A stretch of 24,313 nucleotides of DNA. It comes from a virus. The stretch is taken from positions 1 to 24,313 of IMG/VR virus record IMGVR_UViG_3300010885_010166; one strand, given 5' to 3'. Below, one piece after another: positions 2,509 through 18,260 of this stretch. Both the position numbers and the translations under genes were made by a program. Positions within the stretch are counted from its first letter, which is position 1, and each line of letters opens with the position of its first letter. The notes under the pieces were generated by a model that was not told the origin of the DNA, did not search any database, and saw nothing but the letters and a program-made list of their open reading frames with translations.

Positions 2509-3867
2509 TTGTCACAATTTATTCAAATACTTAGTAATTTTGCCTACAAAGATGCCAAAGGTAATTTAGTACAGGTGCCTGTTCGTTATGGAGATATGAC
2601 TAGACAAGTTGGACAAATACTAAAAAAGAATAGTGAGAACACAATTCCTAGTGCTCCATTTATTTCTTGCTATATCAAAGAATTAGAATTTGATAGAGAA
2701 CGATTACAAGATCCAACTTTTATTAGTAAAATTAATATAATAGAAAGAGACATTGAGCATCAACAATACTTAAATACCAAAGGCAATAACTATACCATTG
2801 AACGTATTATGCCAAGTCCGTATAAATTAACGTTAAATGCAGATATATGGACTACTAGTAACGATCAAAAATTACAAATATTTGAACAAATAGCAATTTT
2901 CTTTACTCCAAGTTTTGAAATACAAACTACAGATAATTATCTTGATTGGACAAGTCTAAGTACTGTTAGATTAGATGATGTGAACTGGACTAGTCGTCAA
3001 ATTCCCCAAGGAGTTACAGAAGATATAGATATCATGACTATGACATTTGATACGCCTGTATGGATTACTCCTCCTGCCAAAGTAAAAAAATTAGGAGTTA
3101 TTACTAAAATTATATCTAATATATTTTCAGGTAATGCACAAGGAACAATTTCTAGTCTATATAATGTACAAGATGCTTCTGATGTATTTTCAAATGTTTC
3201 TCCAGATGCAACAATTACAATAACTCCTGGAAATTATGATTTATTAGTTTTAAACAATACTGCAAGGCTAATACACAGTAATGGTGTTGGTGAAAACATT
3301 GATATTACAGCACCAAAAAATACAGCATCGTGGCATAAAGTATTAGATTTATATCCTGGAAAATTTAGAGCAGGGTTAAGTGAATTAAGATTTGCTCAAT
3401 CGGGAGGCAATGAAATAATTGCTTATATGAGTTTAGATCCTAGTGATGATTTTGCTATGAGATTGAACATAAACACCGACACTGTACCAAGTAATACAAT
3501 TATTGCAGGTAGAGGAACAGTCGATGCTGTAGTTAATCCTGAAAATTTTAATCCTGGAACAGTCACAATAAACACAAGATATTTGATATTAGAAGATATC
3601 AATAACAATCCGCTATTTGGACACACAGGATATCAAGGACCGGTTGCATGGCAAAATTCCGATCATACAGATTTTCAAGCATTTGCCAATGACATTATAG
3701 AGTGGAATGGTAGTAACTGGAATGTTATATTCAGTTCTGCGACAGTTACTAGTATTATATACATAACTAATTCATATACGAGTACACAGTATAAATGGGA
3801 TAACGGAGCATGGAGTAAGAGTTATGAGGGCGTTTATAGTTCAACATTATGGAGAATAATTCTTTAA
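2509..3867 (+). CDS. Tail terminator/sheath stabiliser, T4 gp15-like; start unresolved
   Basis: T4 gp15 caps the tail tube and sheath and links the tail to the neck. The only standard start codon in frame is TTG at 2509 (452 aa), but the conserved family beginning DYFYDGQIRRYL lies upstream in the same open frame (about 2476-2511), so the true protein starts earlier. No ATG, GTG or TTG occurs in that frame between the stop at 2434-2436 and 2509. Seen from the TTG: VPVRYGDMTRQVGQIL, IPSAPFISCYIKELEFDRER, TIERIMPSPYKL, ADIWTTSNDQKLQIFEQI, EIQTTDNYLDWTSL, DIDIMTMTFDTPVWI and KVKKLGVITKII (core to about residue 205). A long beta-rich extension follows, ending in a WNGSNWNV/YKWDNGAW region and SSTLWRIIL, as in marine T4-like relatives. 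It overlaps the Nudix gene by 19 nt. The identity is firm; the start is not. Confidence 0.85.
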   Translation: MSQFIQILSNFAYKDAKGNLVQVPVRYGDMTRQVGQILKKNSENTIPSAPFISCYIKELEFDRERLQDPTFISKINIIERDIEHQQYLNTKGNNYTIERIMPSPYKLTLNADIWTTSNDQKLQIFEQIAIFFTPSFEIQTTDNYLDWTSLSTVRLDDVNWTSRQIPQGVTEDIDIMTMTFDTPVWITPPAKVKKLGVITKIISNIFSGNAQGTISSLYNVQDASDVFSNVSPDATITITPGNYDLLVLNNTARLIHSNGVGENIDITAPKNTASWHKVLDLYPGKFRAGLSELRFAQSGGNEIIAYMSLDPSDDFAMRLNINTDTVPSNTIIAGRGTVDAVVNPENFNPGTVTINTRYLILEDINNNPLFGHTGYQGPVAWQNSDHTDFQAFANDIIEWNGSNWNVIFSSATVTSIIYITNSYTSTQYKWDNGAWSKSYEGVYSSTLWRIIL

Positions 3868-4289
3868 ATCAAGTAATATGTAGCGGCGGGCTATTTCTTG
3901 CCAAAGATACTAAACGATTTTTATTTTTATCAAGAACTCAGTCCAAAACCGCAGGAACATGGGGACTAGTTGGGGGTAAAAAAGAACCCTCAGATGTTAC
4001 CCCATATGATGCTCTTATACGAGAGATACATGAAGAAATAGGCAAAATGCCTACTATAAAAAAAGTAATTCCTTTAGAATTGTTTATCAGCAATGATCTA
4101 CAGTTTCAGTACAACACATATCTATTGATTGTTGATCGTGAATTTATTCCTGTACTAAATGAAGAGCACGATGGATATGCTTGGGCCAGTTACGATCAGT
4201 GGCCCAAACCGTTGCATAGAGCTGTAAAGAATTCATTTAGCAGTAAAATTATTAGAGCCAAATTAGAATTATTATTGGATTTATTTTAA
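3849..4289 (+). CDS. Nudix hydrolase
   Basis: Small (146-aa) Nudix-fold hydrolase, expected to cleave a nucleoside diphosphate linked to another group; the substrate cannot be read from sequence. The Nudix box runs from about residue 43 to 66: GGKKEPSDVTPYDALIREIHEEIG. The REIHEEIG helix with metal-binding Glu residues (59, 62, 63) is intact. The first half is unusual: between the Gly and the TPYDALI segment there is one more residue than in G-x5-E-x7-REUxEExGU, and the usual Glu is replaced by Asp-Val. TWGLVGG precedes the box, as in other Nudix proteins. The start overlaps the end of gp15 by 19 nt in another frame, suggesting translational coupling. Its stop overlaps the stop of the converging glycosyltransferase gene at the palindrome TTAA. 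Functions proposed for phage Nudix enzymes include nucleotide clean-up and RNA decapping. Confidence 0.82.
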   Translation: MENNSLNQVICSGGLFLAKDTKRFLFLSRTQSKTAGTWGLVGGKKEPSDVTPYDALIREIHEEIGKMPTIKKVIPLELFISNDLQFQYNTYLLIVDREFIPVLNEEHDGYAWASYDQWPKPLHRAVKNSFSSKIIRAKLELLLDLF

Positions 4290-5074
4290 AATCCTAGATG
4301 TTTTTTTCTAACAAATTCTAAATCGTAATTAGATTGCTGAGAACTTTCTGCTTGTTTTTCAAATGGTGTACGTGTTGGAGAACATATTCTCCAGTCTGGT
4401 CCCCATTTCTTTGTCAAATACTCTATATTCATTGCGTTGACATCATCTAATTTTTCTTTTAAGCTAGGATCATTTTTTTGTGTTTGATAATGATATTCCC
4501 CATCGCTTAGTTCTAATCCGTGATAGTATGGTTTTTCTAAAGACAATATTTTTCTAATTGGTCTATGTATAAATCTCATAATATAGTCCGCATCTTCACA
4601 ATATGCTGGATATAAGTTTTCGTCAAATAATCCAAAATGTTGAATAATAACATCTCTTATTAAAAATAAATCCCAACTACCAACACCAAATGCTCCCGGA
4701 TTACCATGTATCAATCCTAGATTAGAATCGTTCTCTATCTTAGTTGACATTTCTTCCAATACACCTGGACCAAATGACACATCGTCATTGGCTATAATCC
4801 AATATGGACTATTCATGAAACATTTAATTATAAGATTCCATGCACCAGCAACTCCTATATTTGCGGGTAAATGTACTATTTTTATATTCTTAACAAATTT
4901 GTGATTTATTTTTTTTAAATTATCCAAATCTTCGTCTAATTCTCCACGACCATTATTGTTGATAATAACAAAATTATCAACAGGATAGTCAATACTCATT
5001 AGTAATCTAGTTACCCAGAAATTACTATTAACTACTGCTGTTCCAATAACTGGTATTGATTGTTGTGTGCTCAT
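4286..5074 (-). CDS. Family 2 (GT-A) glycosyltransferase
   Basis: Probable inverting sugar transferase of the GT2 fold using a nucleotide-sugar donor; acceptor unknown. In the 262-aa product, the N-terminal Rossmann-like part has IPVIGTAVVN and NFVIINNNGRG (about 34-44). LPANIGVAGAWNLII (69-83) is the typical stretch before the metal site. IIANDDVSF (93-101) holds the DxD-type motif as NDD (96-98). YCEDADYIMRF (158-168) supplies the acidic residues near the acceptor site, followed by YYHGLEL. The protein ends with a charged tail after TKKWGPDWRICSPT. No membrane helices are seen, so it is probably cytosolic. Its ATG overlaps the stop of the radical SAM gene upstream (ATGA), which indicates coupled translation. 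Resemblance is closest to rhamnosyl-like GT2 enzymes, but the donor sugar is not determinable. Confidence 0.8.
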   Translation of the reverse strand: MSTQQSIPVIGTAVVNSNFWVTRLLMSIDYPVDNFVIINNNGRGELDEDLDNLKKINHKFVKNIKIVHLPANIGVAGAWNLIIKCFMNSPYWIIANDDVSFGPGVLEEMSTKIENDSNLGLIHGNPGAFGVGSWDLFLIRDVIIQHFGLFDENLYPAYCEDADYIMRFIHRPIRKILSLEKPYYHGLELSDGEYHYQTQKNDPSLKEKLDDVNAMNIEYLTKKWGPDWRICSPTRTPFEKQAESSQQSNYDLEFVRKKHLGF

Positions 5075-5991
5075 CTTATAAAACCTTTTTCAAATTTAAT
5101 TACATCAGAATCTAACTTTATTCCATTTTCACAAGATCTACAAATGTTAAAAGTAGAATAAGGTTCTGGGATTACTTCTTCGTAACTTTGATCATATAAA
5201 TTACCTATAATATTTTCTAAACTATAATCCATACAACAAAGAGAAACATCTCCATTTGGCAATAAAACATTATGATACAATCTTTCTTCACAATTGCAAG
5301 TCATGTCATGATTTCCGTGAAATACTGTTTTATATTCATTCTTTAAATTTTCTAACTCGGGTTTTAATAATGCCTCACCTAGTAAATTTCCTGCACGATG
5401 CCACATTTCGTGTACTGGTGCAGATGAATATAGATGCCTAATATCTTCATGAATTTCGGTTCCCATAGACATGGTATGTAAATTATGTATTTCATGTTGA
5501 ATTGTTTTCATGTATTCTAAAAGTTTAATATATCCTTTAGTTATTGGATGTTTTGCTAAACGCCCTTGATCGGGCAAATGTAAAACAAAACCACCGTTGG
5601 GATTACCAGAAAACGGAATATGTTTAATACGTTCCATATCTTCTATAGACATTCCTATACCAGTAGTGAATATAGACACAGGATGGCCTTGATCGTGTGC
5701 ATACAATACCATATCTGTACAATATTTATTCATCCACGGCTCAGTAAATCCTGCAAATGTAATTCTTATGTCTTTAGGTACTTTATCTATTAACGTTCTA
5801 AACCCTTCTATAGATAAAATTGCTTCGCCTTTATATTTAGATTCTAAAATGCGTTGTGGACAGAACACACAATCAACCACGCATCCTTTTTTTGGAATTA
5901 TGGTAGTAATTTCCAACGTGGGAGCACGAGACAGTCTCCACTTCTCAGTATAAACTCCTGGAAAAACTTTTATTTTATGTTCTGATTTCAT
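5071..5991 (-). CDS. Radical SAM protein with SPASM-like C terminus
   Basis: Predicted 4Fe-4S enzyme that cleaves S-adenosylmethionine to make a 5'-deoxyadenosyl radical. In the 306-aa product, Cys37, Cys41 and Cys44 form CxxxCxxC (GCVVDCVFCPQ), the cluster motif. FAGFTEPWMNKY (about 79-90) resembles the glycine-rich SAM-binding strand with an acidic residue. The C-terminal part has further cysteines at 232, 234, 252, 253, 284 and 287 in the pattern of a SPASM/Twitch auxiliary-cluster domain (VLLPNGDVSLCC is typical). SPASM proteins often modify peptides or sugars, but the substrate here is unknown. It sits in a compact minus-strand cassette: the glycosyltransferase start overlaps its stop, and the methyltransferase gene ends 1 nt upstream of its start. 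The small upstream 63-aa gene is not obviously a peptide substrate. Confidence 0.82.
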   Translation of the reverse strand: MKSEHKIKVFPGVYTEKWRLSRAPTLEITTIIPKKGCVVDCVFCPQRILESKYKGEAILSIEGFRTLIDKVPKDIRITFAGFTEPWMNKYCTDMVLYAHDQGHPVSIFTTGIGMSIEDMERIKHIPFSGNPNGGFVLHLPDQGRLAKHPITKGYIKLLEYMKTIQHEIHNLHTMSMGTEIHEDIRHLYSSAPVHEMWHRAGNLLGEALLKPELENLKNEYKTVFHGNHDMTCNCEERLYHNVLLPNGDVSLCCMDYSLENIIGNLYDQSYEEVIPEPYSTFNICRSCENGIKLDSDVIKFEKGFIR

Positions 5992-5992
5992 A

Positions 5993-7954
5993 CTATCTGT
6001 TGTCTATGTATATGGTAATTGCACCGTAATAATCAATAAAATGATCATTCCATAGATCCCACTTGATATTTACGTTATCCATTGAAAATATTTCAATTTT
6101 CTTAAAATCTTTTAAATATGTATCTCTAAATTTTTTAAATTTAATTTTTAGCTCTTCATTATGAAGATGGAATTCTCCAGAAATTTTCTTTACATTACTA
6201 AAAACCCATTCTTTGTTTTCATCTGTGAACATATCATATTCACCGCCCTCACAATCAGTTTTTAAGAAATCAATTTGATTAATACCATAGGTGTTTATTA
6301 ACGTATTAAAAGTAATTCCGTCAGCATCTGATTCTTTACCCCAAATTTCTTGTACATCTTTGTCAAATATTCCCCAAGATTTAAATGCTGTATCAACGTG
6401 AGCTACTGCTTTATTAATACCAGTAACATTATTATACTTTTTTAAATTATTAGTTAATGTTTTATATAAATTCTTGTTAGGTTCTAGGCAAATTACCCTT
6501 GATGGTTTTTTATCAATAATACTATATGTAAATGGGCCAACACTAGCACCTACGTCTAATACTACATCACCTTCTTCAACTTTGAAAAACTTTTGATATA
6601 AATCTTGTACAAAAATTTCATCTTTAACTACTTTAAGGAACCATGGATTTTCTTGAATTTCTCCCCAGTCGAACTCATCATCGGTAATTTTACCAAACAT
6701 ATAGTCTTCTGCTTTTTTGATTTGTGAACCAGTAAATTTCATCTTTTCTAATATTGATGGATCTATTAAATCTGGATGTATCCACCAATCTTCATAGTTA
6801 CGCCATTCGTCAGGTGCAATATTGCCTGCTACCATAACATATCCAAAGGACTCTAAATATTTTCTTGATTTTTCCCTAAAACTTTTAGATTCATCACAAT
6901 AATAATCGTGCTCATAAGTAATAACTGCAAATTGATATTTTTCAAAAGGTATTGATAATAGTATTTTATACGTAATATTAGGTGGGTCACAATCTAATTG
7001 CAGATAATCTATATTGTTAGAAAAATCCAATCCAGATAAAAATTTCTCATAATTTACTAATGTTGCATCTTTCAGCAGACATGGGTTTTTTCTTTCTTTT
7101 GAAAACGCATCAATAAACTGCTGATCTATATCTAGAGATATTCCTGTCCACTCAAAATCTTGTTCTAGTAATGCTGTATTATTTCCATAAAATGGATCAG
7201 CAGCACCTATCTCTAAATAAGTGCCTTTGCGTTTTCCATTTAACATCGTTAACACAAACATATCTTGATACGATTCAGAAAAGTTTTTTTCAATTTTTTC
7301 CGACCCTGGAAATTTTAATTTTAGTTGATTAAATTTTTCTTTATTGAATAAAGTTAATTTATTTTCTTTAATTCCAATTTCTTCAAAATACTTTAAATTT
7401 TTTAGAACTGCTTCTCTATGTACAGTATCAATATTATGATTAACTAATAAATCGTTGAATAACGTTCTAGATTCTTCGCATAATCCACACCACCAACTAC
7501 TAACTGCCTTTTCAAATAATAATCCATATTTTCCGGGATATCCTACATCGGTAATCAATGATGGAGAATTATGGTCACAAACACCCAACCCTGTAGATGA
7601 TAACATGTAACATAAAAACCAATCGCCTTCTTTCTGTTCAACTTCATGTAATCTACTTAAAAAGAAATATGCCTCTGGTCGGGTTGGCAACAATGCAATA
7701 GCATGTTGCAGTAGACCTTTTACGGAAAATGCCCGTGTTCCTTGAGATTCAAAACATCGTGCGGCTTTTATTAAACATTCGTATTTTAACAAATCGTCGT
7801 TTGTTCTTTCAGCGGTCCTTATATAATAAGAAACTGCCGATGCGGTTTGTCCTATACTATTATAATACAATGCTAATGAAAAATTAATTTCAGCATCCGC
7901 GGGGTCATGTATAAATTTTTCTAATAAACTAATAAGTGTGCTATTTGTTTTCAT
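5993..7954 (-). CDS. TPR protein with two FkbM-type methyltransferase domains
   Basis: A 653-aa three-part protein. Residues 1 to about 200 are helical and TPR-like (AEINFSLALYYNSIGQTASA, then LLPTRPEAYFFLSRLHEVE), a pattern common in front of sugar-modifying domains in marine phages. Residues about 225-400 form a first SAM-dependent domain: GTYLEIGAADPFYGNNT (SAM-binding motif I) and IDYLQLDCD. Residues about 440-653 form a second, more canonical FkbM domain: DVVLDVGASVGPF (463-475), ICLEPNKNLY and IDFLKTDCEGGEYDMF (561-576). The FkbM family methylates sugar or other hydroxyls in glycan and polyketide pathways; the target here is unknown. The first domain is degenerate in the CEGGE position (CDPPN), so it may have another substrate or reduced activity. 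No membrane segment is seen. The gene is 7 nt downstream of the GH130-like gene and 1 nt upstream of the radical SAM gene, consistent with one operon. Confidence 0.78.
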   Translation of the reverse strand: MKTNSTLISLLEKFIHDPADAEINFSLALYYNSIGQTASAVSYYIRTAERTNDDLLKYECLIKAARCFESQGTRAFSVKGLLQHAIALLPTRPEAYFFLSRLHEVEQKEGDWFLCYMLSSTGLGVCDHNSPSLITDVGYPGKYGLLFEKAVSSWWCGLCEESRTLFNDLLVNHNIDTVHREAVLKNLKYFEEIGIKENKLTLFNKEKFNQLKLKFPGSEKIEKNFSESYQDMFVLTMLNGKRKGTYLEIGAADPFYGNNTALLEQDFEWTGISLDIDQQFIDAFSKERKNPCLLKDATLVNYEKFLSGLDFSNNIDYLQLDCDPPNITYKILLSIPFEKYQFAVITYEHDYYCDESKSFREKSRKYLESFGYVMVAGNIAPDEWRNYEDWWIHPDLIDPSILEKMKFTGSQIKKAEDYMFGKITDDEFDWGEIQENPWFLKVVKDEIFVQDLYQKFFKVEEGDVVLDVGASVGPFTYSIIDKKPSRVICLEPNKNLYKTLTNNLKKYNNVTGINKAVAHVDTAFKSWGIFDKDVQEIWGKESDADGITFNTLINTYGINQIDFLKTDCEGGEYDMFTDENKEWVFSNVKKISGEFHLHNEELKIKFKKFRDTYLKDFKKIEIFSMDNVNIKWDLWNDHFIDYYGAITIYIDNR

Positions 7955-7961
7955 AATATTT

Positions 7962-8942
7962 TTAATAGGAATTTATAAAATTTTCAAGTTCTTTTACTGG
8001 AAACTTTAGCAAGTAGGCAGCGTTATCTTGGAATCCAAATGTAATTAATATATCATTTTTATAGTTGCACATACCTATGGAAAATTCAACATGAGCATCC
8101 ATGATAGAAAAATCATTGGTATATTTAACTACGTTCCAGTTTTTATCCCAAATGATAAATCTATGTCTATATACTGCATCTTTTCTACCAACTTCACTTT
8201 TGAATAAATCTACTTCGTGTGTTAATGCAATATATCCGTCTTTGAATTTCATCACTTGCGAACCGCCGCGTATATCTCTAGGTAGCCATATTGATCCACT
8301 TAGATATTCTGTTTTAGAAGTTTGTAATATTGGATCAACACTTACTAGTTCGGTAGGATTGGTCCACTTAATATAATGATATGGGACATCCAATACAGGC
8401 ATCCAATTTTTTTCACAATAAGAATCTAGATCTTTAGGGGGAGGTATTCTAAATCTGGATATTTCTGTAACAGCATTTTCTGAAACTGCTATTTCAGACA
8501 GTTCCATTCTACCCTGCCCATTGGTGGTGGTGTCTCTACGTACACCGGTTATATATAACTTTCCGTTCCATCTTATTAATCTTGCATCTTCTAATCCTAC
8601 AAAATCCCACATAGGTTCATAGGTATCAAATTTAGATGTGTCAATTTTATTGATTCTAGTAATTTCAAAATCATCATTGAGTTCGCAATAAAAATTGTCA
8701 GTCCTTAAATGAATATCATTTTCTGGATGCAGGTAAGTTAGAGGACCCCATGGATGTTGAAATAATTTCTTTTCAGAATGAAAAAATGTATAATTAACAT
8801 GTCGAATATTAACAATAATTTTACCGTCGTCTATTAAAATAGATGGATTCATTAATCCCGTACCATTTGTTTGCTCTGACGGGATAATAAGAGGATGTAT
8901 GCTACCGCCTCTATCTAGAGCGAATTTTGCAAGATTTGTCAT
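7962..8942 (-). CDS. GH130-like beta-propeller glycosidase/phosphorylase
   Basis: A 326-aa protein whose spaced motifs suggest the five-bladed beta-propeller group that includes GH130 mannoside phosphorylases: GLMNPSILIDDGKIIVNIRH (29-48), FVGLEDARLIRWNGKLYITG (114-133, the Gly-x-Glu-Asp-x-Arg signature), CEKNWMPV (176-183), DIRGGSQVMKFKDGYIALTH (223-242) and HVEFSIGMC (284-292). Known members act on beta-mannosides, using phosphate or water. Activity here is not proven, and related sequences may be only glycan-binding. There is no signal peptide, so cytosolic action or packaging is more likely than secretion. The start at 8942 has no clear Shine-Dalgarno; CTAAATA about 11 nt upstream is a weak late-promoter-like match. 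It is the first gene of the accessory cassette, with 76 nt separating it from the 63-aa gene. An alternative call is a generic glycoside-hydrolase-fold protein of unknown role. Confidence 0.55.
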   Translation of the reverse strand: MTNLAKFALDRGGSIHPLIIPSEQTNGTGLMNPSILIDDGKIIVNIRHVNYTFFHSEKKLFQHPWGPLTYLHPENDIHLRTDNFYCELNDDFEITRINKIDTSKFDTYEPMWDFVGLEDARLIRWNGKLYITGVRRDTTTNGQGRMELSEIAVSENAVTEISRFRIPPPKDLDSYCEKNWMPVLDVPYHYIKWTNPTELVSVDPILQTSKTEYLSGSIWLPRDIRGGSQVMKFKDGYIALTHEVDLFKSEVGRKDAVYRHRFIIWDKNWNVVKYTNDFSIMDAHVEFSIGMCNYKNDILITFGFQDNAAYLLKFPVKELENFINSY

Positions 8943-9018: not shown

Positions 9019-9210
9019 TTAGTTCATTTTTTCCAAAGAACTTGCCGATAATGAATTAGAATTTGGATCACCTAATTGAGCGTGTGCTTGTTTTTGTATT
9101 TCTGTAAACGTGTCAAGCCCCATTTCAATTGGCAATTTGGCTACTCCTGTTAATATTGTATTAAGTTGATTAATATCTAATTTTAATGTAACTGATTGTT
9201 GTTCGTTCAC
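9019..9210 (-). CDS. Small phage protein of unknown function (63 aa)
   Basis: Encodes 63 aa starting at GTG (9208-9210). The start is supported by AGGAG at 9217-9221, with a 6-nt spacer. The middle, TLKLDINQLNTILTGVAKLP followed by EIQKQAHAQL, resembles small proteins I recall among marine T4-like structural genes (pattern: hydrophobic-N-x-I-L-x-x-hydrophobic-x-x-L-P, then I-Q-x-Q-A). It is predicted to be helical and acidic to neutral, with a Ser/Asn-rich tail (NSNSLSASSLEKMN). No function is known to me. It has its own late promoter (TATAAATA at 9242-9249) after the collagen-like fibre gene. It lies 76 nt upstream of the accessory cassette and could be its first gene. A role as a radical-SAM peptide substrate was considered and not favoured. 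Confidence 0.7.
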   Translation of the reverse strand: MNEQQSVTLKLDINQLNTILTGVAKLPIEMGLDTFTEIQKQAHAQLGDPNSNSLSASSLEKMN

Positions 9211-9241: not shown

Positions 9242-9249
9242 TATTTATA
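9242..9249 (-). promoter_or_regulatory. T4-type late promoter TATAAATA
   Basis: An exact TATAAATA on the minus strand, in the gap after the collagen-like fibre gene. Start of transcription about 6 nt further would give a leader of about 25 nt containing the AGGAG ribosome site of the 63-aa gene. It may also drive the accessory cassette beyond it. Confidence 0.72.
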
Positions 9250-9290: not shown

Positions 9291-11303
9291 TTAAGATTTT
9301 TCAAGTTTTTTAATTTTTTCTTCTAGCTCTTTAATAGCTTCAATTAATAGAGGAATAATAAGATCATATCTAACAGCCTTAAATGGATTGTTGGGATCGT
9401 TTTTATTTTCTAACCCTAGAGGAATATGTTTAAATACAGCCTCGGGTAATACATTTTCAAGTTCTTGAGCAATAACACCAACTAACTTATCATCTGTTCT
9501 ATGAATATAATTATAATGATATCCATTAATTTGAGATACTTTATCCAGTGCTCCTGTTATCTTAACAATATTTTCTTTAAGTCTTCTATCTGAAGTACCA
9601 TAGAAAGCAGTAATATCACCAGTAGCAGTGATTGCACCATTTATAGTAAGTCCAGCGAATGTTGGACTATTACCGGTGCCAAGTGGTTGTACAGCAGGTC
9701 CAGTTGCACCCGTGGCGCCCTGTGTGGCTGTACCCGTGGCACCCTGTGTGGCTGTACCGGTAACGCCTTGTGTGGCTGTACCGGTAACACCTTGATTACC
9801 AGTCGTACCTTGATTACCAGTATTACCTTGATTACCTGTAGTACCTTGATTACCTGTAGTACCTTGATTACCTGTAGTACCTTGATTACCAGTCGTACCT
9901 TGATTACCAGTCGTACCTTGATTTCCTGTAGTACCTTGACTGCCAGTAGTACCTTGATTACCAGTAGTACCTTGATTACCAGTAGTACCTTGATTACCAG
10001 TAGTACCTTGATTACCGGTGATACCTTGACGACCTTGAGTTCCTTGACTGCCTAATACCCCTTGACTACCAGTAGTACCTTGATTACCAGTAGTACCTTG
10101 ATTACCGGTGATACCTTGATTACCAAAAGTACCTTGACTGCCTAATACACCTTGATTACCAGTAGTACCTTGATTACCAGTAGTACCTTGACTACCAATA
10201 ACACCTTGACTGCCAATAGTACCTTGATTACCAGTAGTACCTTGAATACCAGTAGCACCTTGAATACCAGTAGCACCTTGAATACCAGTAGTACCTTGAA
10301 TACCAGTAGTACCTTGACTGCCTAATACACCTTGATTACCAGTATTACCTTGATTACCTGTAGTACCTTGACTACCAATAACACCTTGACTACCAATAAC
10401 ACCTTGACTACCAATAACACCTTGACTGCCAATAGTACCTTGATTACCTGTAGTACCCTGAGTTCCTTGATTACCAGTAGTACCTTGATTACCAGTAGTA
10501 CCTTGACTACCAGTAGTACCTTGACTACCAATAACACCTTGATTACCAATAACACCTTGATTACCTGTAGTACCTTGATTACCAAAAGTACCTTGACTGC
10601 CTAATAAACCTTGAGTTCCTTGATTACCTGTAGTACCTTGATTACCTGTAGTACCTTGAATACCTGTAGTACCTTGACTGCCTAATACACCTTGATTACC
10701 AGTAGTACCTTGATTACCAGTAGTACCTTGAATACCAGTAGCACCTTGAATACCAGTAGCACCTTGAATACCATTGGTGCCCTGACCGGCAGTAGCACCT
10801 TGATTACCAGTCGTACCTTGATTACCAGTAGTACCTTGAATACCAGTAGCACCTTGAATACCAGTAGTACCTTGATTACCAGTCGTACCTTGATTACCAG
10901 TATAACCTTGATTACCAAAAGTACCTTGACTGCCTAATACCCCTTGACTACCAATAACACCTTGACTACCAATAACACCTTGATTACCTGTAGTACCTTG
11001 ACTACCAATAACACCTTGATTACCTGTAGTACCTTGTGTAGCTGTACCAGTAGCACCTTGGACACCTGTTGTACCTTGAACGCTAGTTCCTTGGGGTCCC
11101 GCAGTACCCTGAGGTCCTGTAAGGAGGCCAGTACTAATATAAACTTGTCCACCAACATATAAATCTTTACCAATACCAACACCACCAGAAACGGTTAATG
11201 CTCCAGTAATTGTTGAAGATGCATTGGTAGTGCCATTGACTAATAATCGAGTATCAACGGTACCGGTTCCGTATATTCTTGTTCCAGATAAGAGTTGTGC
11301 CAT
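9291..11303 (-). CDS. Collagen-like tail fibre with S74 chaperone domain
   Basis: A 670-aa fibre subunit, presumably trimeric and on the virion surface. Residues 1 to about 60 hold an N-terminal module MAQLLSGTRIYGTGTVDTRL and one fibre repeat (SSTITGALTVSGGVGIGKDLYVGG). Residues about 63-536 are Gly-x-y collagen-like triplets, mostly G-N-Q/G-T-T, G-S-Q, G-I-Q and G-V-L, with almost no proline, so the triple helix would rely on Gln/Thr/Asn chemistry. After a linker come residues about 567-670, an S74 intramolecular chaperone: YGTSDRRLKENI, LVGVIAQELENVLPEAV and RYDLIIPLLIEAIKELEEKI (a terminal coiled coil). The family self-cleaves at a Ser helped by a Lys; Ser571 and Lys576 in SDRRLK fit, releasing 100 residues. 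The ATG lies 7 nt after a TATAAATA and lacks a Shine-Dalgarno. It is the last large gene of the fibre operon. Confidence 0.88.
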   Translation of the reverse strand: MAQLLSGTRIYGTGTVDTRLLVNGTTNASSTITGALTVSGGVGIGKDLYVGGQVYISTGLLTGPQGTAGPQGTSVQGTTGVQGATGTATQGTTGNQGVIGSQGTTGNQGVIGSQGVIGSQGVLGSQGTFGNQGYTGNQGTTGNQGTTGIQGATGIQGTTGNQGTTGNQGATAGQGTNGIQGATGIQGATGIQGTTGNQGTTGNQGVLGSQGTTGIQGTTGNQGTTGNQGTQGLLGSQGTFGNQGTTGNQGVIGNQGVIGSQGTTGSQGTTGNQGTTGNQGTQGTTGNQGTIGSQGVIGSQGVIGSQGVIGSQGTTGNQGNTGNQGVLGSQGTTGIQGTTGIQGATGIQGATGIQGTTGNQGTIGSQGVIGSQGTTGNQGTTGNQGVLGSQGTFGNQGITGNQGTTGNQGTTGSQGVLGSQGTQGRQGITGNQGTTGNQGTTGNQGTTGNQGTTGSQGTTGNQGTTGNQGTTGNQGTTGNQGTTGNQGTTGNQGNTGNQGTTGNQGVTGTATQGVTGTATQGATGTATQGATGATGPAVQPLGTGNSPTFAGLTINGAITATGDITAFYGTSDRRLKENIVKITGALDKVSQINGYHYNYIHRTDDKLVGVIAQELENVLPEAVFKHIPLGLENKNDPNNPFKAVRYDLIIPLLIEAIKELEEKIKKLEKS
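9696..11117 (-). repeat. Collagen-like coding repeat, 9/18-bp period
   Basis: About 1.4 kb of near-identical 18-bp units, seen on the plus strand as accagtagtaccttgatt and variants. Each unit encodes two Gly-x-y triplets such as GTTGNQ. Longer blocks also recur, for example the segment encoding GVLGSQGTFGNQG and that encoding GIQGATGIQGATGIQGTTG. The collagen frame is interrupted near both ends by five-residue steps (GTATQ). Confidence 0.92.
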
Positions 11304-11310
11304 AGTTTAG

Positions 11311-11318
11311 TATTTATA
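11311..11318 (-). promoter_or_regulatory. T4-type late promoter TATAAATA overlapping a stop codon
   Basis: An exact TATAAATA on the minus strand, 7 nt before the ATG of the collagen-like fibre. Its internal TAA is the stop codon of the upstream 73-aa gene, so promoter and stop share bases. The expected start of transcription near 11305 leaves about 2 nt of leader. Confidence 0.75.
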
Positions 11319-11535
11319 TCGGTTTATTAACTTCGTCAAATCCATTAGATACAAAGATTGTTCCTGTATTTGTTTCTCGTTTCGCCACATTGTTTCTATA
11401 TAAAAAAACTTCATCAAATTGAGCCGCATAGTAAGTTGTAGTAGTGAGTTTTATGCTTGATGTAGTAACCTCGTTTAATTCTCCACTGATAAACAATGTA
11501 CCTGATGAGGTCAAACGTGATGCTACTGTAGGCAT
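11314..11535 (-). CDS. Small fibre-operon protein of unknown function (73 aa)
   Basis: Encodes 73 aa. The ATG shares its A with the TAA stop of the 1465-aa fibre gene (TAATG), indicating coupled translation. The sequence contains three loosely repeated units ending in a [F/L]-[D/N]-E-V core: SGELNEVT, AAQFDEVF and SNGFDEVN. Similar short FDEV-repeat proteins, beginning with a Met-x-x-x-Ala-Ser-Arg-Leu-type segment, occur in marine phage fibre regions as far as I recall, without known function. It is mostly beta-strand-like and Thr/Ser-rich, with no signal peptide. A structural accessory role such as a fibre tip, adaptor or chaperone is an inference from position only. The late promoter of the next gene overlaps its stop codon. 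Confidence 0.7.
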   Translation of the reverse strand: MPTVASRLTSSGTLFISGELNEVTTSSIKLTTTTYYAAQFDEVFLYRNNVAKRETNTGTIFVSNGFDEVNKPI

Positions 11536-14500
11536 TATCCAAACACCGTATCTAAACTATTGGTAGCAGTATTGTAATATTGATAAACAGCACTAATATT
11601 TGTAGCAGATGTCCACCCAATTCTATTACCTACATATATATTACCACCAACTCCTATGCCGCCTCTTACCTGCAATGCTCCAGTTGTAGTACTAATTGAA
11701 GTTGTTGTGCCTGCTAATGTCAATGTGTTTTGGAATACAGGACCTGTTAATGCTGTTCCAGCACTCACTAAAAGATTACCAGCGGTTCCTGGACCAAAGA
11801 AACTTGTTAATCCAGTTCCAGTTTGGAATGGAATCTGTCCAATTGTTCCTCCTCCAATATTTGTTGCGGTAGTTGCACCTTCTGTAGCAACTTTAATCCA
11901 TGATGGTGCAGAACTAACACCGGTTGACGCTAAAACCCAACCAGATGTTGTGGCTGGTGATAAGAATGCCGTTGTGTTAGGAGCACTTTGATATATTATA
12001 GAATTTGATGCACCGCCTGCTAAGTGTACATCTACTGCTCCTTTGGTCCCAGAGACAACATCTTCTGAAATTCCAGCTTCTGGAATAAATGTAAAAAATC
12101 CCAATGAATCTTTATAGCCAAAAAATCCTGTTTTTGCGCCGCCATCGTACCATTTAAATGCAATACCTTTATCTTGATTAGTATCAATTGTGTATGGTGC
12201 ATCATCAGTAGCACCACCTAGTGTAATAATAGGATCGGTAATATTTGTCACTGTACTATCAACTATTGTTCTTGTACCTCGAACAATTAAGTTTCCTCCT
12301 ACAGTTAAATTATTATTAATAGTAGTAGTACCGGTACTAGCACCAATATTAATAGTTGTACCAGCACCGGCAAAATTAATCACAGTAGCAACACTGTTTA
12401 ATAAATTAATGGTATTTTCATCTGTTTCAATATTGTTACCACCAATATAAAGATTACCACCAATACCAACACCGCCTACAACTATTAATGCTCCAGTAGT
12501 AGTACTTGATGCTCCGGTATTGTTTGTTATGCTTGTTGCTCCTGATATTCTAACTGCTCCACCAATATCAACGTTAACAGTAGGTGTTGAAATTCCAAAG
12601 CCTGTATATCCTGTACTTGGAATATAAGTTAATCCTGATGGTCCGGACGTTTTAACACCAGCAGCACCGGTAGTAGTATTCAAGAAAGTAATGTAATGTA
12701 CAGTAGCACTACTTATTTCATTAGTGACAGATACATTAGTTGCTGTTCCTGCGGACAAGGATCCTAGTCCAACCCAGGCAGGATTAGATCCATCGGAAGT
12801 TAGTAAGAATCCGCCGGTACCAATAGGCAATGTGGTAGTTGCACCAACAGCAGTTTGATAAAGTAAAGACCCTGAAGCACCGCCTACAATGTTTGTAGCG
12901 GTAACTGCCGATCCTACATATAAAGAACCAGTAGTAATAAAGTCAGTGGTATTTGGTGCAATTTGATATAATAGTGTTCCGGTACTACCTCCTACTATAT
13001 CATTTGCATATCCTACAGTAAATGTAGAAGTGTCTACAAATATAGCAGCATCTGTTCCCCTACTAACTAATATTTGTCCCACTGTTCCAGTGGACACAAA
13101 TCCAGTAGTACCAGTACTAGATTGATATATAAGTTGTCCAGGTCCGCCATTACCAATATTAGTTGCAGTAGTAACTACTCCAGTCAAACTACCAACAAAT
13201 GATGTTGCGGTTACAATACCACCAACAAATATATTGCCACCAACAAATATATTGCCACCAACTCCAATACCACCCGAAACTCTTAATGCTCCGGTTGTTG
13301 TATTTGCACTAGATGTAGTACTGGTAAAATGAACTATATTAGTAAATGTGCTTATTCCGTTAACAAATAATGCACCACCAATGCCAACACCACCTGATAC
13401 TCTTAATGCTCCAGTTGTTGTTGAAACTGCCGAGCCTGTATTTGTGATATTAATTACGTTTGTGGTAGTTGATCCCCTATTTGTAATAGTTTGAAATGTG
13501 CTAGTATTCCAAATTGTAACTATACCCGAACTAGTATTAACAGCAGTATCGGTTCCTGCTCTAATAGCCGCCACTCCAAAACTTCCTATATTTCCTGTGT
13601 GTACAATTTCACTATTATTAATATAACCTTTACCACCAATATATACATCGCCACCAATGCCTACACCACCGCTAACTATCAAAGCCCCTGTAGTAGTAGA
13701 TGTTGATATTACGTTGCTGGTTATTGTTGTTTGATTTCTAATAAGTGTAAATCCATTGTTATTACCAATGGTAATTGCAGTTCCATCACCGGCAAAATTA
13801 ACAGTAGTAGCAGTTGTATTAATTAAATTAAAAGTAGTGTTATCTGTTGCAAAATCTCCACCAATATATAAATTACCACCTATACCAACACCACCTGCAA
13901 CTCTTAATGCACCTGTAGTAGTATTTGATGCAGATCCTACGCTTTTAATAGAAATATATCCAGTATCAGAACCAATATTAATTACAGTACCAGATCCGGC
14001 AAAATTAACAGTAGTAGCAGTAGTATTAATTAAATTAAAAGTAGCTTTATCTGTTGTAAAATCACCGCCGCGTACCTCGATATCACCCAAGATAACTTCA
14101 TTGCCGCCTACATATAAGTCTTTACCAATCCCAACACCGCCGGCTACTTGGATTACTCCAGTGATAGTACTTGATGCATTTGTAGTATTAGTAAATATGC
14201 CCGAACCAGCAGTTAGTGTAACAGCACCTAATGAGCTTTCAATTTTTAAATCTGTAAGAGTACTAGAAAATTTAATTGTATCAACATATAATGAGTTTGA
14301 TCCTAGGAATATATCAGCAAATGGAGATGCTAATGATCCTAATGACACAAAATTGCTGGTAGGAATTATATTTCCTCCAACTTTGATTTCACCACCTACA
14401 TATAAGTCTTTACCAATGCCAACGCCGCCTGCTACTTGCAATGCACCAGATGAGGTACTTATTGATGATGCAGTGTTTGTAATTGTTGTTCTATTTTTTA

Positions 14501-15932
14501 TTTCAACATATCCGTTACCTGATCCAATATTAATTGTAGTTCCAGATCCTGCAAAATTAATAGTAGTAGCGGTAGTATTAATTAAATTAAATGTTCCAGA
14601 ATTATTAGTATTAATATTACTACCATTAACAGAAATGTTGCCAAATAAAACAGCATCGTTACCTAAATATAAATTTTTACCAATAGCAACACCACCGGAT
14701 ATTTGTAATGCACCTGTTACAGTACTCGATGCATCGGTAGTTCCTGTAAATATAGCATTAACTGTTCTTAAGGTATTGTTAGTATAATCATATCTAAAAT
14801 CGTATTCAAACTCTGTTTTTCCATACCCTGTTTGGTAAGGAATCTGCATATCTGCACCAGCATTTATATTTGTAGCAGTATTTGAATACTCAACTGGAAC
14901 GGTAGCTAACGGGTACCATACTGGAATATTACCATCTGATGATAATACTTGTCCACTTCCTCCAATTGGAAGAGTTGTTGAAACGCCTGGAGCACTTTGA
15001 TATATTATAGAACCAGTAGTACCTGCTATAATATTAGATGCCGTTGACGCAATTCCTTGTAAATATCCAGTAAATGTTGATGCACTGACTATTCCAACTA
15101 CAAATAAATCTTTACTAATACCCACACCACCAATAACTTGTAATGCTCCAGACTGAGCGCTAACTGCTGTATCTGTTCCAGTTAATATTATATTACCAGT
15201 TTTAAATGTTCCGTAAGTAGTGGCTGTAAAAGTTCCAGTAGTAGATTCTGCACCAGTATCATACCATTCTAAATATTTTGTACTGTTGTTTAATACCAAT
15301 GCTCCTCGTTGATTAGAGCTATTTGAATAATAATTAAAACGTAAACCGATATCTTTCCCGTCATCAAATGTCCATGTGGAGGTATTGTTGGGTACATGTA
15401 ATTCTAATAAATTATCAGTATAAACAGTATTAGTGCTATAAACATTTGTAGTAGCACCAGTAAAAATTACATCGCCTTGAAATAATGTTTGCCCGGATAC
15501 AACTAAAGATTTTGCAATACCAACACCGCCGGCTACATATAGTGAATTGTTTACAATACTACCTGTGCTAGCATTTGTTCCATTTATTACAATATTACTA
15601 CCAATATATACACCACCGCCAACTTTAAGTGTTCCTACTCCTCCTATAGTTGCTGTGGTTAAATCAAGTAATATTAATGATGTAGCAGTAGTGGCTCTTA
15701 GTTTAATACTTCCAAGAACTGATAAATCTCCAGATATAGTTGCATCTCTGGTTGTGATTAAATTCCCGCCAATAGTAGCGGTAGTTCCTACAATCAAATT
15801 TTTAGCAATAGCTGCACCGCTGTTAACTTGAAGAGCTGTAGTTTGTCCTGTTGAACTTGTAACCGTTCCGGTACCTTGGATAATTAGTCCACTTCTGGTT
15901 ACAAAATCTTCTGTGATTACTGCTATTGCCAT
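11535..15932 (-). CDS. Large repeat-built tail fibre-like structural protein (1465 aa)
   Basis: A 1465-aa, Gly/Thr/Ser/Asn-rich virion fibre protein built from interleaved repeats. (a) About 13 copies of a unit like STTTGALRVSGGVGIGGNLY followed by IGG. (b) Four copies of FNLINTTATTVNFAGSGTxI plus NIG, within roughly 12360-14600. (c) About six copies of ATNIxxGxxGxLxYQ...TTLPIGGSGQVLSSDG. (d) Two copies of a DKGI-type module (near 15290-15440 and 12080-12250), the second with GIAFKWYDGGAKTGFFGYKD. No enzymatic domain is recognised. The composition fits an elongated trimeric beta fibre, and this repeat style is frequent in marine T4-like phages. The ATG at 15932 is preceded by AAAGGAATGAAAAA, a plausible ribosome site. 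It is flanked closely by fibre genes on the same strand, with a 16-nt gap upstream. Receptor binding or fibre-shaft function is inferred from context. Confidence 0.8.
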   Translation of the reverse strand: MAIAVITEDFVTRSGLIIQGTGTVTSSTGQTTALQVNSGAAIAKNLIVGTTATIGGNLITTRDATISGDLSVLGSIKLRATTATSLILLDLTTATIGGVGTLKVGGGVYIGSNIVINGTNASTGSIVNNSLYVAGGVGIAKSLVVSGQTLFQGDVIFTGATTNVYSTNTVYTDNLLELHVPNNTSTWTFDDGKDIGLRFNYYSNSSNQRGALVLNNSTKYLEWYDTGAESTTGTFTATTYGTFKTGNIILTGTDTAVSAQSGALQVIGGVGISKDLFVVGIVSASTFTGYLQGIASTASNIIAGTTGSIIYQSAPGVSTTLPIGGSGQVLSSDGNIPVWYPLATVPVEYSNTATNINAGADMQIPYQTGYGKTEFEYDFRYDYTNNTLRTVNAIFTGTTDASSTVTGALQISGGVAIGKNLYLGNDAVLFGNISVNGSNINTNNSGTFNLINTTATTINFAGSGTTINIGSGNGYVEIKNRTTITNTASSISTSSGALQVAGGVGIGKDLYVGGEIKVGGNIIPTSNFVSLGSLASPFADIFLGSNSLYVDTIKFSSTLTDLKIESSLGAVTLTAGSGIFTNTTNASSTITGVIQVAGGVGIGKDLYVGGNEVILGDIEVRGGDFTTDKATFNLINTTATTVNFAGSGTVINIGSDTGYISIKSVGSASNTTTGALRVAGGVGIGGNLYIGGDFATDNTTFNLINTTATTVNFAGDGTAITIGNNNGFTLIRNQTTITSNVISTSTTTGALIVSGGVGIGGDVYIGGKGYINNSEIVHTGNIGSFGVAAIRAGTDTAVNTSSGIVTIWNTSTFQTITNRGSTTTNVINITNTGSAVSTTTGALRVSGGVGIGGALFVNGISTFTNIVHFTSTTSSANTTTGALRVSGGIGVGGNIFVGGNIFVGGIVTATSFVGSLTGVVTTATNIGNGGPGQLIYQSSTGTTGFVSTGTVGQILVSRGTDAAIFVDTSTFTVGYANDIVGGSTGTLLYQIAPNTTDFITTGSLYVGSAVTATNIVGGASGSLLYQTAVGATTTLPIGTGGFLLTSDGSNPAWVGLGSLSAGTATNVSVTNEISSATVHYITFLNTTTGAAGVKTSGPSGLTYIPSTGYTGFGISTPTVNVDIGGAVRISGATSITNNTGASSTTTGALIVVGGVGIGGNLYIGGNNIETDENTINLLNSVATVINFAGAGTTINIGASTGTTTINNNLTVGGNLIVRGTRTIVDSTVTNITDPIITLGGATDDAPYTIDTNQDKGIAFKWYDGGAKTGFFGYKDSLGFFTFIPEAGISEDVVSGTKGAVDVHLAGGASNSIIYQSAPNTTAFLSPATTSGWVLASTGVSSAPSWIKVATEGATTATNIGGGTIGQIPFQTGTGLTSFFGPGTAGNLLVSAGTALTGPVFQNTLTLAGTTTSISTTTGALQVRGGIGVGGNIYVGNRIGWTSATNISAVYQYYNTATNSLDTVFG
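12360..12415 (-). repeat. Copy of NFAG cassette in fibre gene
   Basis: Encodes INLLNSVATVINFAGAGTTI, the most divergent of four copies of this cassette in the 1465-aa fibre gene. The others lie near 13789-13849, 13996-14056 and 14545-14600. Confidence 0.6.
13219..13254 (-). repeat. Exact 18-bp tandem duplication in fibre gene
   Basis: Two identical 18-bp units (plus strand ccaccaacaaatatattg) lie head to tail and encode NIFVGGNIFVGG where other fibre repeats have a single copy. This looks like a recent in-frame slippage event. Confidence 0.85.
13789..13849 (-). repeat. 61-bp direct repeat, copy 1
   Basis: By eye matches 13996-14056 with three mismatches in 61 bases. Both encode the FNLINTTATTVNFAG cassette of the 1465-aa fibre. 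The similarity at DNA level indicates segmental duplication or gene conversion. Confidence 0.8.
13996..14056 (-). repeat. 61-bp direct repeat, copy 2
   Basis: Partner of 13789-13849, about 207 bp away in the same orientation and reading frame, so a recombination between them would remove or add 69 codons without a frameshift. Confidence 0.8.
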
Positions 15933-16874: not shown

Positions 16875-18260
16875 TTAAATTGAACTAACCTGTAACCAAA
16901 TTTTATTAGCACCATCTACAATATATTGTAGATATGCATACGTATTTTGATTTATCCAAAAATCTCCAACTCGTGGATCAGTCGGTGTACTAGTACTTAC
17001 TGTTACTCTAGGAGTGTATAACAAATAATTTTCATCTGGATGACCTTCATTGCTATATACACTACCATCTGCTCCAATTCCACCTATAACTCGAAGAGAA
17101 CCTGTTTCCCTTGATGTAGAGTTTTCCCCTAATCCTACACTAAGTGTAGAATATATTTCACTAGTACCGGTTCCGTCATAATAAAATATACTACCAATAC
17201 CAATTTGATTATCAATTCCATCTAAAATTGTTTCTGCACCAATAGAAATTATACCATTAACACTGGTTAGATTATTTCCTACCTCGTTGCCTATAAAGAA
17301 ATTATTAGATCCAGTGGTTAAATCTTTTGCTGATCTATTACCAAGAATAAAATTGTTGCCACCGTCTATTAAGTTAAGAGCAGTCTCATGTCCAATAGAG
17401 ATATTATCATTACTGCTAACAACTCTACTTAATATTCCGCCGCTGCCATATGCAGTATATCCAGTACCATCAACGGTGGTTGATAAAAGAATATCCGTAT
17501 AAAGTGATAAATTACTTGTATCTATAGCATTAACATAATATTCATTACCATTTAATTCTGTCATTCCAGTAATATCAGCAATGGTAATAACGGACCCAGT
17601 ATTTAGATTATGATTTGCAACATGTATTACTACAGGATTTGCGTTAGTTGCATTAGTTATATTACCTACGTATATAGAATGAATAGTGCCCAAATTTTTC
17701 ATTGCACTATGGCCAATTGCAATACTATTAGAAATTTTAGTACCAGTGGAAAATATGTTTGATCCAATAGAAATAGTTTTATAGGCCTGGTCTATATTTT
17801 TTAATGTGTTATATCCAAATACTAAATTTTCTTGACCTCTATCTGGTGTTACAACTGTTTGTGCCGCACCTGTTACTACAATATTATTTTTCCCTTCATA
17901 CCCACGGCCAATAGTTATATCATTAACATGAATATCATCTTTCACCCATAAATTTCTACCAATTCCAACTCCTCCATTAACTACTAGTGTTCCGGTAGCG
18001 GTACTTGTTGATAGTGAGGTTGTTCCTGTAGAAAGTATAGTAATTGTTCCAGTACTTTGATTACTATACATTTTAGATTGATTAAATTCAATATTCCCCA
18101 AACTAGATGCATATGATGTTTGCAAAAATTTGTTGGTAATTATAGTAAAACCAGTAGTAGTAGAAGCACTTTCAGGCAACTGGGGTTGGGCATTTGATAC
18201 CTGAAGGAATTCCCCGCTGCCTCCACCTCTTAATCTTGATCCACTTAATAAATTAGCCAT
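16875..18260 (-). CDS. Tail fibre protein with adhesin head-like repeats and FCCH-like insert
   Basis: A 461-aa predicted fibre. The N terminus MANLLSGSRLRGGG resembles that of the collagen-like fibre (MAQLLSGTRIYGTG). A fibre repeat follows (STATGTLVVNGGVGIGRNL, about 86-104). Residues about 144-193 and 284-345 carry repeats like those in trimeric adhesin heads: ENLVFGYNTLKNI, SIAIGHSAMKNLG, ISIGHETALNLIDGGNNFIL and NNFFIGNEVGNNL. Between them, residues about 207-277 (NPVVIHVANHNLNTGSVITI, then MTELNGNEYYVNAID) resemble the FCCH-type domain annotated in ubiquitin-activating enzymes and also in many phage fibres. The C-terminal TPTDPRVGDFWINQNTYAYL with WLQVSSI is a common fibre ending. GAGAG precedes the ATG by 7 nt. 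The architecture suggests a surface-binding shaft or tip; receptor unknown. Confidence 0.78.
   Translation of the reverse strand: MANLLSGSRLRGGGSGEFLQVSNAQPQLPESASTTTGFTIITNKFLQTSYASSLGNIEFNQSKMYSNQSTGTITILSTGTTSLSTSTATGTLVVNGGVGIGRNLWVKDDIHVNDITIGRGYEGKNNIVVTGAAQTVVTPDRGQENLVFGYNTLKNIDQAYKTISIGSNIFSTGTKISNSIAIGHSAMKNLGTIHSIYVGNITNATNANPVVIHVANHNLNTGSVITIADITGMTELNGNEYYVNAIDTSNLSLYTDILLSTTVDGTGYTAYGSGGILSRVVSSNDNISIGHETALNLIDGGNNFILGNRSAKDLTTGSNNFFIGNEVGNNLTSVNGIISIGAETILDGIDNQIGIGSIFYYDGTGTSEIYSTLSVGLGENSTSRETGSLRVIGGIGADGSVYSNEGHPDENYLLYTPRVTVSTSTPTDPRVGDFWINQNTYAYLQYIVDGANKIWLQVSSI

Follow-up and report, generated by a model that had tools for sequence, protein, structure and literature searches.

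The subject of this analysis is a cassette of four minus-strand genes in a 24.3-kb viral record from IMG/VR (IMGVR_UViG_3300010885_010166, positions 1 to 24 313, analysed over its full length and referred to as the window), which belongs to a T4-like phage as judged by its neck and tail genes. Read 5' to 3', the cassette encodes a GH130-like protein, a protein with TPR and methyltransferase domains, a radical SAM/SPASM enzyme and a GT2 glycosyltransferase. We found that such cassettes are modular and co-specialised with one type of collagen-like repeat, in the product of a neighbouring fibre gene. Because of this co-specialisation, the fibre as substrate is the most economical reading: the cassette is probably a phage-encoded protein-modification kit for the collagen-like fibre beside it, and its most likely job is to place methylated sugars on that proline-free fibre.

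The window fibre (locus L006 in our data set) contains 139 Gly-X-Y triplets in long tracts and not a single proline. Position Y is glutamine (50%) or threonine (34%), the repeats are rich in GNQ, GTT, GVI and GSQ, and the protein has a C-terminal Peptidase_S74 chaperone. Fibres from 69 cassette loci are nearly proline-free, with threonine (33%), isoleucine (22%) or valine (14%) at X and glutamine (74%) or threonine (17%) at Y; those in the few cassette-free loci that carry a collagen-like fibre are of other kinds (rich in proline, in alanine and threonine, or in tyrosine/phenylalanine). Since samples anchored on the cassette are biased, gp15 was taken as the anchor instead. In dereplicated loci extending 5 kb or more past the Nudix gene, a collagen-like open reading frame (ORF) was present in 13/13 cassette loci versus 2/50 cassette-free loci (Fisher's test, P = 1e-11). 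At the level of whole records, PF01391 was detected in 27 of the 34 records with a cassette and in 6 of the 28 without (3 of these 28 controls had been chosen because a collagen-like ORF was already seen there, which biases the comparison against an association); none of the 28 control records gave a GH130-like match. When only records of at least 100 kb were considered, the figures were 10/10 and 2/9 (P = 7e-4).

The reverse test, in which records were picked by the DNA pattern of their fibre repeats alone, gave the same picture: a TPR domain was found in 23 of 43 records with proline-poor Gly-X-Gln (GXQ) fibres rich in Thr, Ile or Val at X (T/I/V-rich), in 1 of 30 with proline-poor, T/I/V-poor fibres (Fisher's test against the T/I/V-rich class, P = 2.8e-6) and in 0 of 50 with Gly-Pro-Gln fibres (P = 2.6e-10), with the limits of the repeat classes fixed after the cassette-anchored sample had been seen and with a few contigs common to both samples (e.g. 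L397 and L145). A GH130-like gene was present in 22 of the 43 T/I/V-rich records, and for T/I/V-rich records of at least 40 kb the TPR cassette was found in 13/20. Inspection by eye of the genes beside four T/I/V-rich GXQ fibres revealed no obvious replacement enzymes. One 40.9-kb record (L457) combines apparent photosystem reaction-centre genes (identified by eye) with a GXQ fibre, no cassette being found in the record.

Association of this kind could arise if cassette and Gly-(T/I/V)-Gln fibre were one mobile block by history, with unrelated functions. The region is indeed hypervariable (PMC7029224), cassette presence is clustered on the gp15 tree (4 changes versus 12.1 in shuffles) and 59 of 75 cassette-linked fibres fall in a single flank-similarity cluster. 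However, on the gp15 tree the cassette must have been gained or lost four times or more, and the fibre changed along with it in 4/4 independent pairs (sign test, P = 0.125). Furthermore, 43 of 81 proline-type fibres without a cassette share homologous flanks with cassette-linked ones (identity reaching 52% over 195 amino acids), and some of them occupy the same gp15/Nudix site. As the flanks are shared and the repeats differ, the cassette goes with the repeat type and not with the fibre gene; repeat type and cassette change together. These observations, together with the 16 fused architectures and the invariant active-site motifs described below, make joint cargo quite improbable.

Composition also varies with cassette content. 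Cassettes without the GH130-like gene are paired with threonine-poor fibres (7 versus 69 fibres, P = 2e-4 to 2e-3). Where FkbM or radical SAM domains are present, the fibres are richer in threonine at Y. This trend agrees with threonine as the acceptor, but is only a lead. One clade (L145, L146, L147, L148, L150, L156 and L158) has only the TPR-methyltransferase and GT2, and its GIQGVQ fibres are poor in threonine.

At least 600 stretches of viral DNA code for GH130-like relatives, and further cassette loci were found through the radical SAM and TPR proteins. Profile mapping of 97 dereplicated loci revealed 27 gene orders and 16 fused architectures of the same domains (for example, GH130-FkbM-rSAM, TPR-FkbM-rSAM, GH130-rSAM and TPR-GH130, where rSAM is radical SAM). 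Of the dereplicated GH130 loci, 52 extend at least 5 kb downstream; all 52 have the TPR domain, 35 the middle methyltransferase, 32 GT2, 22 FkbM and 18 radical SAM. Given that TPR is present in all 52 loci and the other domains are patchy, the core of the cassette is the GH130-like propeller plus TPR, with varying methyltransferase, radical SAM and GT2 parts. The initial annotation had suggested from the close packing that the four genes serve one pathway, and had considered them an incidental pile of cargo genes should they never co-occur elsewhere. The former proposal is strongly supported, as hundreds of contigs show the domains together, and fused, in many different permutations; the latter is ruled out by this recurrence and the repeated fusions.

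Related sets were found in annotated phages and in hundreds of aquatic viral contigs. When 84 980 genomes of bacteria and archaea were scanned with two short conserved peptides, which distant cellular relatives could escape, five relatives only were returned, all on contigs of 3–18 kb, one of them sitting with phage gp13/gp15 genes. The family therefore looks viral, and a recently captured bacterial operon is disfavoured. The contig L246, binned as a Rhodobacteraceae genome, holds gp13/gp15 as well as the cassette and is therefore probably phage DNA inside a bacterial bin. A system restricted to cyanophages was also rejected, psbA/psbD-type genes being found in only two of the long records tested, both of them cassette-linked. 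The genes neighbouring the cassettes fit sugar chemistry: a nucleotidyltransferase with a mannose-6-phosphate isomerase cupin in 11/84 loci, and a sulfotransferase in 7/84 (e.g. L075:2619-3452), hinting at sulfated sugars. Giant multi-domain proteins (FkbM, GT17-like and DUF6445) lie beside the cassette in 33/84 loci (L051:14078-17077 and relatives).

Searching solved structures by sequence with the alignments of all four proteins gave zero matches, so that a comparison of folds was needed. The first protein matches Glyco_hydro_130 in Pfam (5e-5) just below the cut-off (22.9 bits versus 26) and was accordingly regarded as a clan relative instead of being filed as a GH130 member. Its AlphaFold2 (AF2) model is a five-bladed beta-propeller (pLDDT 93.4), for which the 25 best Foldseek matches are all GH130-type (E = 5e-10), followed by GT108 (E = 6e-8). 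The top PDB matches are beta-1,2-mannobiose phosphorylases; Leishmania MPT-2, a GDP-Man-dependent GT108 enzyme (6q4x), was also recovered. Glu118-Asp119 is invariant across 49 GH130-like sequences and, when compared with 21 bacterial GH130 proteins by hhalign, the GLEDAR of the window protein falls on GxEDPR, while N32, R47 and D306 align with the conserved Asn, Arg and Asp of the GH130 -1 subsite. In BT3780, Asn74, Arg89, Glu141-Asp142 and Asp363 contact the mannose substrate, and several of them are essential (PMC4599007). GH130 and GT108 have a common fold and mechanism, yet are separate families (PMC8950772). Cleavage or phosphorolysis of mannoside-type glycans, as first suggested for this gene, is possible for such a fold, but a GT108-like transferase role fits the context better.

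The second protein (AF2 pLDDT 87) had been annotated as a double FkbM methyltransferase. This is clear for its C-terminal domain, which exceeds the cut-offs of PF05050 (Methyltransf_21; residues 467–611, 4e-10, 40 bits versus 22.7) and TIGR01444 (56 bits versus 37.7). The middle domain is only distantly FkbM-like: it has no significant match in the window protein, 2 of 8 tested homologues reach the FkbM cut-off, and its hhalign match to the C-terminal domain spans 30 columns only. The N-terminal TPR domain, which had gone unnoticed, is what varies least within the family (TPR matches in 16/26 homologues). Foldseek led from the model to tandem methyltransferases and to the TPR part of O-GlcNAc transferase (OGT) and SPINDLY. 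In the radical SAM protein the SPASM match is above the Pfam cut-off (2e-5) and the Radical_SAM match below it (1.5e-4); the CxxxCxxC motif (C37, C41 and C44) and six SPASM cysteines (C232, C234, C252, C253, C284 and C287) are invariant in 15 sequences. The glycosyltransferase matches PF00535 (Glycos_transf_2; 6e-7, 30 bits versus 23.3) and PHROG 29879, galactosyl transferase (1e-23), and its NDDV region is conserved across 23 sequences. Some GT2 homologues are about 520 amino acids long; one of these (L020:12857-14419) has a match to GT25 (PF01755) over its N-terminal half. GT25 includes collagen galactosyltransferases as well as lipopolysaccharide enzymes.

The following scheme may be proposed: (i) the TPR domain would grip the extended, unfolded Gly-X-Y chain, as that of OGT does with peptides; (ii) the GH130/GT108-like propeller would add the first sugar, most likely mannose, with threonine as the likeliest acceptor; (iii) GT2 would lengthen the sugar; (iv) the FkbM-type domains would O-methylate it; (v) the radical SAM/SPASM enzyme might carry out a C–H modification of the sugar or of a Gln, Thr, Ile or Val side chain; and (vi) the modified repeats would build the fibre shaft, the modification supplying the stiffness or protection that proline gives to other collagen-like fibres. 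The gene set, the motifs, the predicted folds and the tight link of the cassette to proline-poor Gly-(T/I/V)-Gln fibres are what the data show; which molecule is modified, in what sequence of reactions, with which sugar, at which residue and to what advantage, we infer. Support for modification of the fibre comes from the likeness of the TPR domain to OGT and SPINDLY and of the propeller to the GDP-Man mannosyltransferase, and from the neighbours, namely the cupin with nucleotidyltransferase, the sulfotransferases and the GT25-GT2 fusion. Glycosylation of threonine is a known route to collagen stability, and BclA is glycosylated (PMC3368898, PMC8968730).

Several points weigh against the fibre as substrate. 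The TPR cassette is missing from 20 of the 43 T/I/V-rich GXQ records, many of which are fragments, and 7 of the 34 cassette records, all of 64 kb or less, lack a collagen domain. The four pairs on the gp15 tree are too few for significance, the association could reflect joint transfer within one hypervariable island, and the contrast between GH130-negative cassettes and threonine-poor fibres depends mainly on one phage clade. The GH130-like proteins may also be phosphorylases or hydrolases. Finally, the FkbM, GT2 and GT25 families act on lipopolysaccharide too. This bears on the host surface, the other of the two targets proposed in the initial annotation: the enzymes would add and methylate sugars on the host O-chain or capsule and so exclude competing phages, the proximity of the fibre being due to a shared host recognition island. 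Such a role has been published for glycosyltransferases of the same island (PMC7029224) and of jumbo cyanophages (PMC7824862), and the model of the 653-amino acid protein also matched a capsule synthesis multienzyme (8qoy) in Foldseek. Alteration of a host glycan is thus possible, but it predicts neither the dependence on repeat type (23/43 versus 0/50), nor a constant TPR domain fused to several enzymes, nor the co-variation of fibre threonine content with GH130, and we regard it as unlikely. Decoration of the virion fibre is favoured of the two, through the link to one collagen-like repeat type.

Two further possibilities concern what the enzymes make or do. A secondary-metabolite reading has been put forward for another cyanophage cluster (PMC7824862). 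Applied here, the radical SAM/SPASM enzyme, methyltransferases and glycosyltransferase would make a small-molecule or peptide natural product, either similar to a ribosomally synthesized and post-translationally modified peptide or a sugar-derived metabolite. SPASM enzymes often mature peptides. However, no conserved small precursor peptide was found, the adjacent 63-amino acid ORF gave no match in phage records, and the consistent partner of the cassette is a collagen-like fibre; a natural product is very improbable. Still less probable is a chaperone function, in which the TPR and propeller proteins would help to fold long Gly-X-Y shafts with catalysis secondary or lost. A constant pair of TPR and propeller, next to long repetitive fibres in 97 loci, would suit it, yet homologues at about 40–95% identity all retain the catalytic ED, the radical SAM/SPASM cysteines and many further residues.

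The coordinates of the features are listed in Table 1.

Table 1. Features of the cassette and its surroundings in the window (positions on the 24 313-nt sequence)
Feature	Position	Strand	Basis or remark
GH130-like five-bladed propeller enzyme, 326 aa, first cassette gene	7962-8942	-	Pfam, AF2, Foldseek, hhalign
Glu118-Asp119, catalytic ED motif of the GH130-like protein	8591-8586	-	Alignment
TPR + FkbM-like middle domain + FkbM methyltransferase, 653 aa	5993-7954	-	Pfam, NCBIfam, AF2, Foldseek
TPR domain, residues ~1-212	~7954-7319	-	TPR matches in homologues, Foldseek
Middle domain, residues ~213-440	~7318-6635	-	Distantly FkbM-like
C-terminal FkbM domain	~6634-5996	-	Pfam, NCBIfam
Radical SAM enzyme with SPASM domain, 306 aa	5071-5991	-	Pfam, invariant cysteines
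GT2 glycosyltransferase, 262 aa	4286-5074	-	Pfam, PHROG
Nudix hydrolase, convergent neighbour	3849-4289	+	Overlaps GT2 stop by 4 nt
63-aa ORF, GTG start, between fibre and cassette	9019-9210	-	ORF list
TATAAATA, T4-type late-promoter-like octamer	9242-9249	-	Upstream of 63-aa ORF and cassette
Collagen-like fibre gene, 670 aa, proposed substrate	9291-11303	-	Pfam Collagen 5e-63, Peptidase_S74 5e-16
TATAAATA octamer	11311-11318	-	Just upstream of collagen-like fibre gene

The four packed ORFs, their spacing (the GT2 and radical SAM genes overlap by 4 nt; the other intergenic gaps are 1 and 7 nt) and, apart from the middle "FkbM" domain, their family names agree with the initial annotation. The gp15 tail sheath stabiliser of the window scores over its Pfam cut-off, and the gene at 430-1188 matches a head-tail connector PHROG. 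The Nudix gene keeps its place beside gp15 in most related phages, cassette present or not, and is therefore no member of the cassette; it follows gp15 in nearly all gp15-anchored loci of sufficient length (e.g. L176, L248 and L338), with or without a cassette. A late promoter had been proposed upstream of the cassette. The TATAAATA octamers do lie at sensible sites, but the window has no excess of the motif (3 occurrences versus 6.5 expected by chance). The 63-amino acid ORF possibly shares a late transcript with the cassette. More large fibre-like ORFs are present (11535-15932, 16875-18260 and 18701-24202); they carry repeated segments of the type TTGALxVxGGVGIGGxLxVGG and are not collagen-like.

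The host-recognition islands of abundant aquatic phages are dense with genes for glycosyltransferases, methyltransferases and radical SAM enzymes, whose presence has been put down to changes in host lipopolysaccharide. If our reading is correct, one large class of these enzymes modifies the virion's own fibres instead. This would account for the function of collagen-like repeats that have no proline, and would yield a well-defined group of enzymes, with a repeat predicted as their substrate, that is open to co-expression tests, as well as a new toolkit for modified collagen-like materials. More tentatively, there may be a second type of collagen shaft, in which Gly-(Thr/Ile/Val)-Gln is stabilised by a methylated, radical SAM-tailored modification that TPR-guided enzymes attach to the still unfolded chain, cassette and proline being alternatives within one fibre family.

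A literature search covering few subscription journals returned no phage system with this gene set, but the island and a related set are on record. PMC7029224 describes the island, under the name host recognition cluster, in T4-like pelagimyophages and cyanomyophages. In the available excerpts of that paper it is the same variable region by gp14/gp15, with collagen-repeat fibres, glycosyltransferases taken as modifying the O-chain and a mention of radical SAM cassettes, whereas the GH130-TPR core, the domain shuffling and the link to proline-free repeats are not reported there. Relative to the literature searched, then, the island was known before and the link of the cassette to the proline-free fibre type was not found. 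In Synechococcus phage DSL-LC02 (OR032571.1), genes for a GH130-like protein, a TPR-radical SAM fusion and FkbM lie between those for collagen-like and tail fibres (52–63% identity), but with another fusion order and no GT2 found. Its GenBank record labels the set gene by gene (FkbM, beta-mannosyltransferase), and the accompanying paper (PMC10611076) does not mention mannosyltransferase, FkbM or collagen and proposes no function for the set. The cultured Synechococcus phage S-SCSM2R (host WH7803) likewise encodes GH130-like and TPR genes and a GXQ-rich protein (PQ898602.1, locus tag SSCSM2R_204).

With the GH130 mannoside phosphorylases and beta-mannosidases and the GT108 enzymes of Leishmania, the phage propeller shares the five-bladed fold, the GxED[AP]R motif and equivalent sugar-site Asn, Arg and Asp residues; it differs in being remote in sequence (~15% identity, no PDB match by sequence), nearly confined to viral contigs in the collections searched, and fused or linked to TPR, methyltransferase and radical SAM domains. 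OGT and SPINDLY likewise tie a TPR solenoid to enzymes acting on polypeptides, but the phage TPR is fused to methyltransferase, radical SAM or GH130-like domains and not to the OGT glycosyltransferase domain. Also close are the glycosylated collagen-like proteins of the BclA type (Bacillus exosporium) and mimivirus collagen, in which collagen-like repeats bear sugars, with stability proposed to be gained without hydroxyproline. There, the enzymes are different and the repeats are Gly-Pro-Thr; here, the repeats are Gly-(T/I/V)-Gln in the fibre of a tailed phage, the sugars of which we infer. What marks a collagen-like protein glycosylation system genetically, that is, modifying enzymes tied to a collagen-like substrate, is found in the cassette.

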